A stretch of DNA of 64,000 nt from Haliclystus octoradiatus (taxonomy: Eukaryota > Cnidaria > Staurozoa > Stauromedusae > Haliclystidae), in NCBI GenBank assembly GCA_916610825.1, contig OU744449.1, positions 7,336,243 to 7,400,242 of the forward strand, written 5' to 3'. The position numbers were made by a program, and so were the translations under genes. Shown here one piece after another: positions 47,101 through 53,100 of this stretch (the first letter of the stretch is position 1; each line of letters starts with the position of its first letter). The notes under the pieces were generated by a model. It saw only the letters and a program-made list of their open reading frames with translations. It did not search any database and was not told the DNA's origin.

Positions 47101-50100
47101 AAATCCCCCAAACGTGCGCGTGTGTGTGTGTGTGATTTTGTATTTACTTCGTAATTTATCGTAAATACAACCACATGAGCTATTAGCTCGTTTGCGTGGG
47201 GACGAAGGACTGAACAGCAGTCACATTTATATACATCTTATAATTGTAATATCAGTGAGCTTTCATTTCATCAATGCTACATTACAGATAAAATACAAAT
47301 TCGTGAATCGTCCAACCAAAAGGAAATACTTGCGGCATAGTTGTGGCCAGATTTACAGACCTAACCCCAACAAAAAGTTCTGAAAAAGTTGAAAATGTTC
47401 TGTGATTCCAAAAGCCTACGCTTTATGTCACTGGATAATAAAAATATGAGCCTTGGCAATCAGTTCTACTGATTGGGATTGGTTTAAAATTAAGTTCCAT
47501 TGCTGAAAATGCTGGAACTTTCGATGTTGGAAAATGCTACACGTTTGATAAGAAAACGAATTTTACGGTTGCTTGCTAATCAAATTTGCTACTCTGGCTG
47601 TAGAAGAGCGGAATTAAACATTTGATATACAGTGTAATACAAAGGGAATGCGGGTGACATTATTTTTATTACAATTTATCTGAATATTTTTAATTTTGGC
47701 ATTTCTACAATCATGACAGTTCATAAAGAGCTTGCATTAATATTAGATAAGCTCTATGGCATATTGTTAGTTTTTTTCTGTAATCTGAAGGTTGGACTCT
47801 GCCTGAAATTTAATCACTACTAACGATGTGTTTTTGCAATGCTTATTTTAGCGACCTGGTCATCGGATTGGTAAGCCAGATAGTAGCTTTGAAATTCGTG
47901 GTGCTGCACTTGAACATGTTGGAAAGGATAAAGCGAAAGGGAAAAAGAATGTATTTCAGGTACAATGAAACCTGTTTTTAAGAATTAATCGTTGAACCCA
48001 ATTGTTGATCGCAGCCTTGGTGTAGTGGTTAGGGATTTGGACAACTGCCCGCACTGTCTTGGGTTCAATCCCTGTCAGAAGCACTATTGGTTGGCGTCAG
48101 GAATGGTGGCATCCGGCCATAAAATGCACAAACGCTTCAAAAATACTAATCAATTAAACACACCCCGGTGAAAACAAGCTTTAAGCGTACCCGGTTTGTG
48201 TATAAAAAAGTAGGTAGTGTCGCTGTAGGTATACATGCTGTTTTTATAGACATATCTCATTTAATTAATGCAGTAATCCCCTTTAAACGTTTCTTTAAGT
48301 TTTAACCTACCACTATATAGAAAAGTAGCCGTTTAATGGAGGTGAACTTTATAGCAGGTCATAGCAGGCTTTAGAATAATAATGTATAAAACTTTTATAA
48401 CAAAACTCATGAATATCAGAAGCTCTTATGTCATCGTCTCTTTTCTCTTATTTTAATCTAGTAGGCATCTAATAAATTTCATTATGACCATACAATAACC
48501 GCTATGACTATAAGTAACAACAAAGGATGAATATAGGCTGTTTGACATAACATGGGAGATATTCGTTTTGTTCTGCAATTTGATTAGATAATCCTAATCT
48601 CTGGAAGATGCCAATTTTGTCAATATTCTCTACTATTTCTGTACAAAACTGTATCATTGGGTGCCTGACGTGTTTCTAGATTTAACGGGTTTATACTGTA
48701 TATATCAGTGATACATCTTGAAAAATGGTTTGGCGATGGCAATTTGAATGCGCCATTGACTGCACAACAAGTTGACTATTTAGAGTGACAATAAATAGTC
48801 GATATCCAAGTAAATAGTGCTTTCTTTAACAGGATGCAGATTTTAACAATTGCTATCTTTTTCGAAATCGGTGACCAAACCTCATTGGCATATTCCAGGA
48901 TGGGACGCACAATCATATGCCATAAAGTATATAATACTCACTCGATCTTTCTGCTACGAATAGCTGATTAATTTGTTTACAAATTATTAATTGTTATCTA
49001 TGTGATGTGTTGAAAATTTTAATATTAATGTACTTTTACCAAACTTTCAAGGCCAATGAAAAATAAAAGTAATGTAGACGGTGTCGCCCTACCGAAGGCA
49101 CCCGTACCACTCCTCTATTTCTAGATGAGTGGCTTTTTTCGCTGAGAGCAATGATTTTAAACGCTCTTTGTTGATCTCAGCCGCGACACTGCAGATCAAT
49201 TTCAACAGATTTCATGGCAGATAGGTCTCGATTGTTAATGCGCAACGATGCGCCGCAGCTACTCACAATGCAATTCCCTCTGGACCATTCCATCCGCCAT
49301 CCTCAGATGGTACTCATTTGATGTTTCAGATAAAGTCAAGGCTGAGTTGACCTTAGGGGGATTTGAACCACAGTCGATCAGATATGATCCGATCTGAAGT
49401 TCGGTTGCTCTGCCATCTGAGCTAATCCTCCTAGGCCAATGAAAACAACATAAACAAACTTTTTTTTGTTTTAGTTGTCAAGTTATGGTGGTGCCACTGT
49501 AATTCAGTTAGTTGTTGAAAATTTTAATATTAATGTACTTTTACCAAACTTTCAAGGCCAATGAAAACAACATAAACAAACTTTTTTTTGTTTTAGTTGT
49601 CAAGTTATGGTGGTGCCACTGTAATTCAGTTAGTTGTTGAAAATTTTAATATTAATGTACTTTTACCAAACTTTCAAGGCCAATGAAAACAACATAAACA
49701 AACTTTTTTTTTGTTTTAATTGTCAAGTTATGGTGGTGCCACTGTAATTCAGTTAGTTGTTGAAAATTTTAATATTAATGTACTTTTACCAAACTTTCAA
49801 GGCCAATGAAAACAACATAAACAAACTTTTTTTTTGTTTTAGTTGTCAAGTTATGGTGGTGCCACTGTAATTCAGTTAGTTGTTGAAAATTTTAATATTA
49901 ATGTACTTTTACCAAACTTTCAAGGCCAATGAAAACAACATAAACAAACTTTTTTTTGTTTTAGTTGTCAAGTTATGGTGGTGCCACTGTAATTCAGTTA
50001 GTTGTTGAAAATTTTAATATTAATGTACTTTTACCAAACTTTCAAGGCCAATGAAAACAACATAAACAAACTTTTTTTTTGTTTTAGTTGTCAAGTTATG

Positions 50101-53100
50101 GTGGTGCCACTGTAATTCAGTTAGTTGTTGAAAATTTTAATATTAATGTACTTTTACCAAACTTTTAAGGCCAATGAAAACAACATAAACAAACTTTTTT
50201 TTGTTTTAGTTGTCAAGTTATGGTGGTGCCACTGTAATTCAGTTAGTTGCTGATTCTATGAAAGCAATGGGAGCCTGGGTTACATCGTTACAAACAACTA
50301 TTCAGCGACTGGTAAATTAGCTTTGTCTATTTTACCTGTGAGAAGTAATATTATATGTTTGTCTTATATCGTAAATCTTCATGTTTGAAACTTTTTTAAT
50401 TGAATTTTTTCACCCGCGGTAAATTAAGGTAATGACGGATTCATGAACAGAGCTATTTTTTTCCAAGATTTCTTGCGAGAATCCGTTGTCTGTTCAATGT
50501 CTATCTATAGAAAGGTTTGTCAAAGCCTGCATGCCCTAGCATGAAATTTCAATACGAATATAAAGTTTAAAATCGTTGCAATTATATAATACAGCTGTGT
50601 ATCTCTTTGATTTTTGATATTGAATTCTTAAATATCAAAACATTCAATATCACATTCATGTAGAATAGTATGTGATGTGAATGGATCAAGGATCATTATA
50701 AACTTACTATACTCTACTTTTCTCTCAGGACGAAGAAGAACCTTTACCTCCTGCCCCAGATATCCCATCACCTGTTGAAGATGTGACCGATGCTCCTTCT
50801 TTCGAATTAACACCGCCTGTAGCACCACCAAAAATGCCTGCTAATGTCGTTAAAGAACCACTTACACCATCATCCAATTTAACACCGACGCTACCCAAAG
50901 GATTTAAAGGATTCAGTCGGCGACTGTCAAAACGTGTCACAGGTTTGTTATTTGTTTGTTGTCAAGGCTACTATATAAGTTTAGGTAATATACATAAAAT
51001 AGTTTTAGAATATGATGCAGATTCTTGCAATATGATTGGCTGATTTATATGTTTGGAAATTCTTCAATAAGTATGATTCTTCAATTCGTGTGGGACTACT
51101 TTTGTAGGGATGTAATTAGAATCTTGGAGGCTTTATTTGTGGCATTTATCATTTTCACACAAAACTGGGTAAGCTATTAGCTTCATTCAAATGTTGGTCT
51201 TTTATGATGTTGTGCTTTTTTTCTACATCTGCTAGGAATTGAACCCAAGACCCTGCGGGCCAAGGCCCAATAGTGCCAACACCTAACTAAGGCCCGGGAA
51301 CTAAGGCCTCATCTGAATAATTACATCTGAAACATTTTGATTATATTTTGTGATTGGATATTTGTGATATTCTGCTGCAGGACCTTCGACTGGTTCGAAT
51401 GGTGTCAGTGCAACGCCGTCTTTATCGTCAACTTCTGAGGATGTCCAAGAAAAGGCTAGAATCAAAACTAAACTGAGAAAGTTCATCACAAAAAGACCTA
51501 GTTATAATGATCTTGAAAAGAAAGGAATTGTTCACGGTAAGTGGGACTGTTCTTTTTTTGATAAAACTAACCAAGAACAAGCGGCATGGACTTCAGAATG
51601 GAAGAAATGTCTGAACAGTTGTAAATTCCTAAAAAGGGATCGTTTGTAATAACGTGTAATCTTTTCCCCTCCCTGTTCCTTGTTTTCAATGGATTTGTCT
51701 TGGTGATCTTTCAAACAATCAATCTACCTTCTGTAAATTACGAATAAAGTCAATCATGTGTGTTTCTTGGTTTACGCTTATTTTACCACATGATTACTGA
51801 TGTAAAAACTAAGGCAACGTCGAAACCCCATAGCCCCAAAATCAATCTGGGAACCCCCTTTTTTTCTGCATATCAAAATTTTATTCTTAATAATTTTTTA
51901 GTAAATCGACAGAATAAAAATGTTGGTTCTTTACTGTTTCAAAACCTACTTTAAAAGGGTTTTGCCTTCAAGTTTTGATGATGCAAGGGGATTTCCGGAG
52001 ATAATTTTCTCATGAATATATTAATCAAGCAGTTTAACTATGAGATAGTATTTTCAACAGAGCATTCTAATAGAATTCTTCTATTGGAAGTATATGTATT
52101 AACCTCGATGTAAGTGAAGTGTCATGATGTGTGTCTATGCGACTGTAGAGTACTAAGAAGCCTATACCTCTCAATCCTTACTTTACTCATCGACTCTATG
52201 CAATATAAATGTATTTGTCAATTGAGTCAGGACATCTAATCTTGAGTTAATACATTGACAAATAATTAATTTAATCTCCTTCTCACACTAATAAATAATT
52301 GATTGCTTTTATCGGAAATGTATCTTCTTTTTTCATATAGATCAAATATTTGGCTGTCCACTTGAGAAACTAGTTAAACGTGAAAAAGGAACTGTCCCTA
52401 AATTCGTAACAACATTTATAAACGCGATTGAACAGGAAGGTTTGGATAGCAAATTATTATTAGGCGATATAGTTATTATAAGATTGTTCATCCAATTGCA
52501 GTGGTAGAATGCTCGATGTCAATGCATGACAACAAACCTACAATCAGTGTAGTAGTATAGTCCCATTGAATAAAATCAAACAATCATATGAACACTTTGA
52601 TTATCAGATAATTATTGGAAATAGTCTAGAATTATTCACCATGATATTCTGAACTAATTAGAATCAAAAATATTTGAAAAAATGCACCGGAACTAGTTCC
52701 AAGCTCTTGCCGTTCAACGTCAGATAGAAATGAAAAGGGCCTGGGACTAGTTCCGGCGCACTACTGAAAATATTTTTTGATTCTAATTAGTTCAGTATAT
52801 GATCATGAATAATTCTAGACTATTTCTAATAACTATCTGATAGTAAGAATGTCCGTATGATTGTTTGATTTTGTCAATGGGACTAAACTAAGTGATCTTA
52901 TTCAACTGGTATATAACGGGGCTGGAAATGATCTAGAATCAACCAGTACATGATTTAGAGCCAATCCCAAGCAAAAATTATTCAAAACTAAACTAGTCCC
53001 AGGCCCTTTTATCAAGATCAAGTAGGCTATATAGAAACACAAACTTGTAAATTCTGTTTCAACCGATTTTCAATATTCTTTTTGCATATGGTACCTTTGT

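Follow-up and report, generated by a model that had tools for sequence, protein, structure and literature searches.

We identified a seven-copy tandem array of the 3' splice site of exon 11 of a RhoGAP gene in a 64,000-nucleotide stretch of the Haliclystus octoradiatus genome (contig OU744449.1, positions 7,336,243 to 7,400,242 of the forward strand; hereafter the window), located on chromosome 4 (28.99 Mb). The array is real, recent and probably neutral, with an origin that is ordinary for this genome, and no selected function is evident for it. Taken jointly and loosely, a young minisatellite-like array produced by slippage or unequal exchange, combined with a last acceptor that makes the functional messenger RNA, is a likely reading of the locus.

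The first 40 bases of exon 11 are present seven times, starting at positions 49475, 49597, 49720, 49843, 49965, 50088 and 50210 (spacing 122, 123, 123, 122, 123 and 122). Tandem Repeats Finder (TRF) delimits the array at 49433–50253 on the plus strand (period 123, 6.7 copies, 98% matches) with a score of 1594, far over chance. Each unit of 122–123 bp comprises a polypyrimidine tract, an acceptor and the 40 exon bases, and the array shows the pattern of minisatellites and variable number tandem repeats, in which near-identical units, tens to hundreds of bases long, are arranged head to tail. The copy positions and the TRF result both bear out a first-pass annotation of this DNA, which had described a tandem 3' splice site duplication in seven units of 122–123 bp. 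It had given the copied exon part as 41 bases; exactly 40 are identical in all seven copies, and the real exon 11 diverges from base 41. The six spare copies lie on the plus strand at 49475–49514, 49597–49636, 49720–49759, 49843–49882, 49965–50004 and 50088–50127. Five have the acceptor TTTTAG and the third reads TTTTAA, in agreement with the five intact spare acceptors and single AA that had been annotated, and only the last unit leads into the full exon 11 (50210–50311), likewise as annotated. The spacing tracks a run of T residues (8, 8, 9, 9, 8, 9 and 8 by copy, with T9 in the third, fourth and sixth). Besides this run, the units vary by two substitutions, the AG>AA change at the third acceptor and a C>T change in the intron-derived part of the last unit. 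With the T run excluded, two units differ on average at 0.57 of approximately 117 sites, or 0.49%.

Two Pfam domains are encoded by the joined exons of the RhoGAP gene over 46021–56763, PH (PF00169, E = 5e-11) and RhoGAP (PF00620, E = 5.3e-42), and a WW domain (PF00397, E = 6.1e-12) was found in an upstream exon at approximately 38.9–39.1 kb that was searched separately and not joined to the others. Among solved structures, the closest relatives are ARHGAP12 and ARHGAP15 for the GAP domain and ARHGAP9 and ARHGAP27 for the PH domain. With its WW, PH and RhoGAP domains, the WW exon being unjoined, the gene is by sequence an ARHGAP9/12/15/27-type RhoGAP. Exon 10 (47852–47959, plus strand) codes for part of the PH domain (PF00169) and has the donor CAG/GTACAA. 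Intron 10, when joined to the last acceptor, extends over 47960–50209 (2250 nt, plus strand) and carries the array at its 3' end. Exon 11 (50210–50311, plus strand, 102 nt) is of phase 0 at both ends, with the donor CTG/GTAAAT; its junction with exon 10 is thus a phase 0 junction inside the PH-RhoGAP gene, and it codes for the C-terminal third of the PH domain as judged from the frame and the alignment to solved relatives. The exon numbering was taken over from the first-pass annotation, and the start of the RhoGAP exon at 46021–46066 is tentative. The protein used for the searches ended one exon at 52466, and the donor was later set at 52440 (first intron base, versus 52467); the searched RhoGAP protein thus has approximately nine surplus residues in the GAP domain, seen as an alignment gap, and the array is unaffected.

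The first unit of the array is interrupted by a 370-bp short interspersed nuclear element (SINE) at 49063–49432 on the minus strand, flanked by a 13-bp target-site duplication (AGGCCAATGAAAA) at 49050–49062 and 49433–49445. A 55-bp piece at 49008–49062 (plus strand) is the severed left part of the first unit: by sequence comparison it matches the left part of the six later units at 100% identity in five and at 98% in the last, and the genome search finds it too. On this evidence the array begins at 49008 and its first unit is split by the SINE, which moves the start upstream of position 49475, where the first-pass annotation had placed it. The SINE has a tRNA-like head at its 49432 end that was recognized by eye. 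It was rejected as a genuine tRNA gene, as ARAGORN predicted no tRNA gene in the window. In the genome search, the best 40 of 2,426 first-look candidates were scored and all 40, the window copy included, were 99–100% identical. The window copy differs from a consensus of 30 copies at two of 370 positions (range across the 30, 1–6), these copies having been picked by likeness to it, so that the family overall is more diverse. Judged from these identities, the element belongs to a young, abundant repeat family. Older relatives are present in the window at 5947–6269 (81%) and 29270–29448 (86%). Because only the first unit is split and the sequence of the others continues across the insertion point with no SINE, we infer that the element inserted once the first duplication had taken place. 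The units and the SINE each show a divergence of about half a percent, and both events would therefore be recent and close together in time, unless the units have been homogenized since. The recent amplification that had been proposed from the near-identity of the units thus gains from the two substitutions, the T8/T9 run, the 0.49% mean difference and the young SINE inside the first unit.

That a single unit was multiplied by the assembler is unlikely in the extreme. The units are nearly identical and the T8/T9 differences could be homopolymer errors, as such an artefact would have it; against this, two substitutions distinguish the units, and a SINE flanked by a clean target duplication interrupts the first of them. 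The whole region, 49008–50253, measures approximately 1.2 kb, and typical HiFi reads are longer than that. The assembly, jrHalOcto1.1, was built from 68-fold HiFi reads with a quality value (QV) of 56.6 according to excerpts of its genome report, which also lists poly-A RNA-seq data (ERR9434978) and an alternate haplotype (GCA_916610655.1) (PMC9975415).

The array very probably originated by tandem slippage. The left flank (...ATGTGATGTGTTGAAAATT), the right flank (...CAGTTAGTTGCTGATTCT) and the junction (...CAGTTAGTTGTTGAAAATT) have TG (2 bp) in common at the break, and this TG sits in a 6-bp near match, TGTTGA/TGCTGA. Such an array would be built by slippage or by microhomology-mediated duplication with later unequal exchange, and the inclusion of the exon 11 acceptor region in the 122–123 bp unit would be a matter of chance. 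With the same TRF settings, four arrays with a period of at least 100, at least 3 copies and at least 90% matches were found in 193,942 bases outside the window, with units of 205 bp (L011, split by its own SINE copy), 145 bp (L029), 161 bp (L037) and 189 bp (L067). This rate of about 1 per 48 kb corresponds to some five thousand arrays genome-wide if the sample is representative, with wide error (genome searched, 33 contigs with 261,861,806 bases). At such a frequency, some arrays would be expected to overlap exon boundaries by chance, and a slippage or unequal exchange event that took in a splice site by accident is therefore the economical explanation. A dispersed repeat carrying a splice site was rejected as the source: a genome search with the unit, which skips very common words, gave two matches, both in the window, and among the sampled loci the unit occurs only in the three that overlap the window (L001–L003). 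The SINE-split array of L011 (L011:1-3369) is a second case of a SINE in an array, with a same-family copy inside the 205-bp repeats, of which 7.2 copies lie on one side of it and 7.3 on the other.

Apart from the third, the spare acceptors have not decayed. The five intact ones score 12.7–14.0 compared with 13.95 for the real acceptor, and among the 3,103 AGs on the plus strand of the window only five reach 13.95, four of which are the array's own T8 copies. The splice matrices comprise 30 donors and 27 acceptors, namely those of 25 introns (10 of the RhoGAP gene, 15 of chaperonin genes) and sites of upstream exons of the RhoGAP gene (five donors, two acceptors). The introns, 100–2,250 nt long, were defined from the reading frame and from consensus sites, in some cases by eye. 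Nine of 22 adjacent match pairs were left out where the join was ambiguous or not found, or DNA was missing (C2 392-439/441-488, C8 15-59/58-104, C8 58-104/116-233, C8 267-329/323-367, C4 17-48/48-141, C4 324-370/365-449, C4 365-449/439-488, C7 391-450/446-485 and C2 15-50/49-75); these are unlikely to be introns below the sampled minimum, because their two matches are more than 450 bases apart.

With intact acceptors of about equal strength, the choice among them would depend on downstream context. Under exon definition, acceptor choice favours a normal exon with a good donor. The last copy alone leads into such an exon, with a good donor 102 nt further on, and would be favoured; it would then give functional messenger RNA, while some transcripts would leak into stops. 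A transcript spliced to an upstream copy would reach a stop a short way past that copy and would presumably undergo nonsense-mediated decay. On read-through from a spare copy, the frame ends in a stop after 29 codons in five of the six copies and after 26 in the sixth. The first-pass annotation had predicted that joining exon 10 to any decoy ends in ...LPNFQGQ and a stop; this is correct for five of the six, the AA copy counted, and the copy at 50088 stops earlier, after ...LPNF, because the last unit carries the C>T change.

Several observations weigh against a chance array with a preferred last acceptor. The survey sample consisted of 29 loci of SINE copies with their flanks, most of the others were chaperonin genes, and only 30 kb (six 5-kb stretches) were arbitrary; the survey loci are thus mostly non-random, and five of the six arbitrary stretches have no qualifying array. 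The matrices are small (30 donors, 27 acceptors) and include sites of the same gene, and the real acceptor is in the training set; when left out it scores 11.7, tied third of 27. In a BRCA1 partial duplication the upstream acceptor was used and the duplicated intron piece was kept in the complementary DNA, unquantified in the excerpted report (PMC11839443), and a potato RdRp duplication of comparable kind created a new spliced intron according to excerpts of PMC4974935. Because these two cases went otherwise, we put the predicted preference for the last copy at only about even chances or a little better.

The spare acceptors may instead attract a large share of the splicing and, through stops and decay, reduce RhoGAP output, copy number setting expression as in a hypomorphic or tunable allele. 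The five intact spare acceptors match the real one in score (12.7–14.0 versus 13.95), all six spare copies reach a stop on read-through, and the excerpted BRCA1 report provides a case of upstream acceptor use (PMC11839443). On the other side, no GT in the unit scores over 3.0 among the best 20 listed, leaving the spare copies without a good donor of their own, and the array sits in an assembled haplotype of a wild animal; we consider this reading unlikely. It is quite improbable that the array works as a natural copy-number dial, in which every added acceptor would send some transcripts into a stop or insert a PH cassette of 20 residues. If it did, individuals with unlike unit counts would make unlike amounts or forms of this RhoGAP.

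The cassette itself had been proposed in the first-pass annotation, which noted that a GTACTT donor in the unit would yield an in-frame 60-base exon. Each unit would then consist of an acceptor, a 60-nt exon (LSSYGGATVIQLVVENFNIN), the GTACTT donor and a 62–63-nt intron to the next acceptor, and 0 to 5 in-frame copies of 20 residues would be added to the PH domain at the exon 10/11 junction. The 60 bases before GTACTT are indeed in frame and open in copy 1, the copy examined, and the potato gene, in the excerpted report, gained an intron after a duplication over the same kind of boundary with a donor from the upstream exon (PMC4974935). The property is not special, however, as GTs at 24, 36 and 39 bases in copy 1 also end open in-frame stretches. 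The donor AAT/GTACTT, first met after an acceptor at 49535–49540 (plus strand), scores 1.8, compared with 6.9 for the exon 10 donor and 8.5 for the exon 11 donor, and lies under 29 of the 30 sampled donors in leave-one-out scoring. Counting its own copies, seven of them in intron 10, 38 of the 144 GTs of intron 10 and 865 of the 3302 GTs on the plus strand of the window score at least as high. The implied intron of 62–63 nt is shorter than all 25 sampled (minimum 100). What stands of the proposal is the open in-frame stretch; the donor is weak and the implied intron too short, and a 20-codon cassette, weakly supported by the sequence, is highly doubtful.

Reporter genes with tandemly duplicated splice sites were built in the 1980s to ask which of several identical acceptors the spliceosome picks; compared with those constructs, the present array is a natural seven-copy case. 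It offers a test of this classic question in which one acceptor is already mutated and for which RNA and HiFi reads of the animal are public. Such a test could reveal whether the first acceptor, the last acceptor or the exon context prevails, and how a repeat growing across a splice site is tolerated by its gene. The array does not consist of tandem cassette exons, which would require every copy to be a complete exon equipped with both an acceptor and a donor: the copies carry only the first 40 bases of exon 11, and the exon 11 donor (50312) is uncopied. Recursive splicing and dual-specific sites were rejected, as the intact copied acceptors read TTTTAG/TTG and AGGT occurs in neither 49008–49062 nor 49433–50209.

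The kinds of duplication met in the open-licence literature are partial duplications with one extra copy (PMC11839443) and the AGGT array of human UBC (PMC10809524), as far as the excerpted reports describe them. The unusual feature here is seven acceptor copies, six of them intact with the real one included, for which the UBC array is the nearest many-copy case; no many-copy array of plain acceptors was found in the open-licence PMC literature, covered mostly by titles and the starts of abstracts. Excerpts of PMC10809524 describe UBC, like the present locus, as a many-copy tandem repeat with a splice signal in each unit, but its coding units are 228 nt apart, carry the dual-specific AGGT and form a splice ladder visible by reverse transcription PCR, whereas the acceptor here is AG/TTG in an array that lacks AGGT. 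The BRCA1 partial exon 10 duplication resembles our case in placing the end of intron 9 and the start of exon 10 in tandem, with a premature stop, and differs in that the patient carried just one additional copy, of 2,012 bp, and that RNA demonstrated use of the upstream acceptor, unquantified in the excerpted report (PMC11839443). In potato RdRp, as here, the duplication crosses an intron-exon boundary with branch site, polypyrimidine tract, acceptor and exon start; its donor is recruited from the exon upstream, and RNA reads prove the new intron from two copies according to excerpts of PMC4974935, whereas our case has seven acceptors and a weak donor. A review holds that duplication can supply splice signals, as here, and allows imprecise gain via latent sites; its model case in the excerpted text duplicates an exonic AGGT (PMC3443670), whereas here an intron end and an exon start are present in many copies.

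Other repeats were noted in the window and the sampled loci. A second array in the window at 8984–9602 (163 bp x 3.8, 90% matches by TRF) was inspected for open frames and sequence. Among the arbitrary 5-kb stretches, the L067 array qualifies in the survey, and the satellite of L064 is less regular and falls outside its thresholds; there, nested 31-, 42-, 156- and 404-bp repeats around ATGATCTAGTAAT nearly fill the stretch (L064:214-4879). TRF also detected very long ATT microsatellites in the window at 30684–31918 (approximately 411 units) and 54040–54167 (approximately 43 units). Palindromic TTCATGAAC motifs occur in tandem repeats at 26146–26209 and 42125–42248 of the window, and at L019:3097-3367 and L037:3941-4581. 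An intron of the RhoGAP gene contains an inverted repeat (52572–52670 and 52774–52872) with 99-nt arms that are 88% complementary and 103 nt between them. An open frame of 851 amino acids on the minus strand (58952–61507) has no Pfam match at 0.001, and its start resembles by eye the end of a protein kinase domain.

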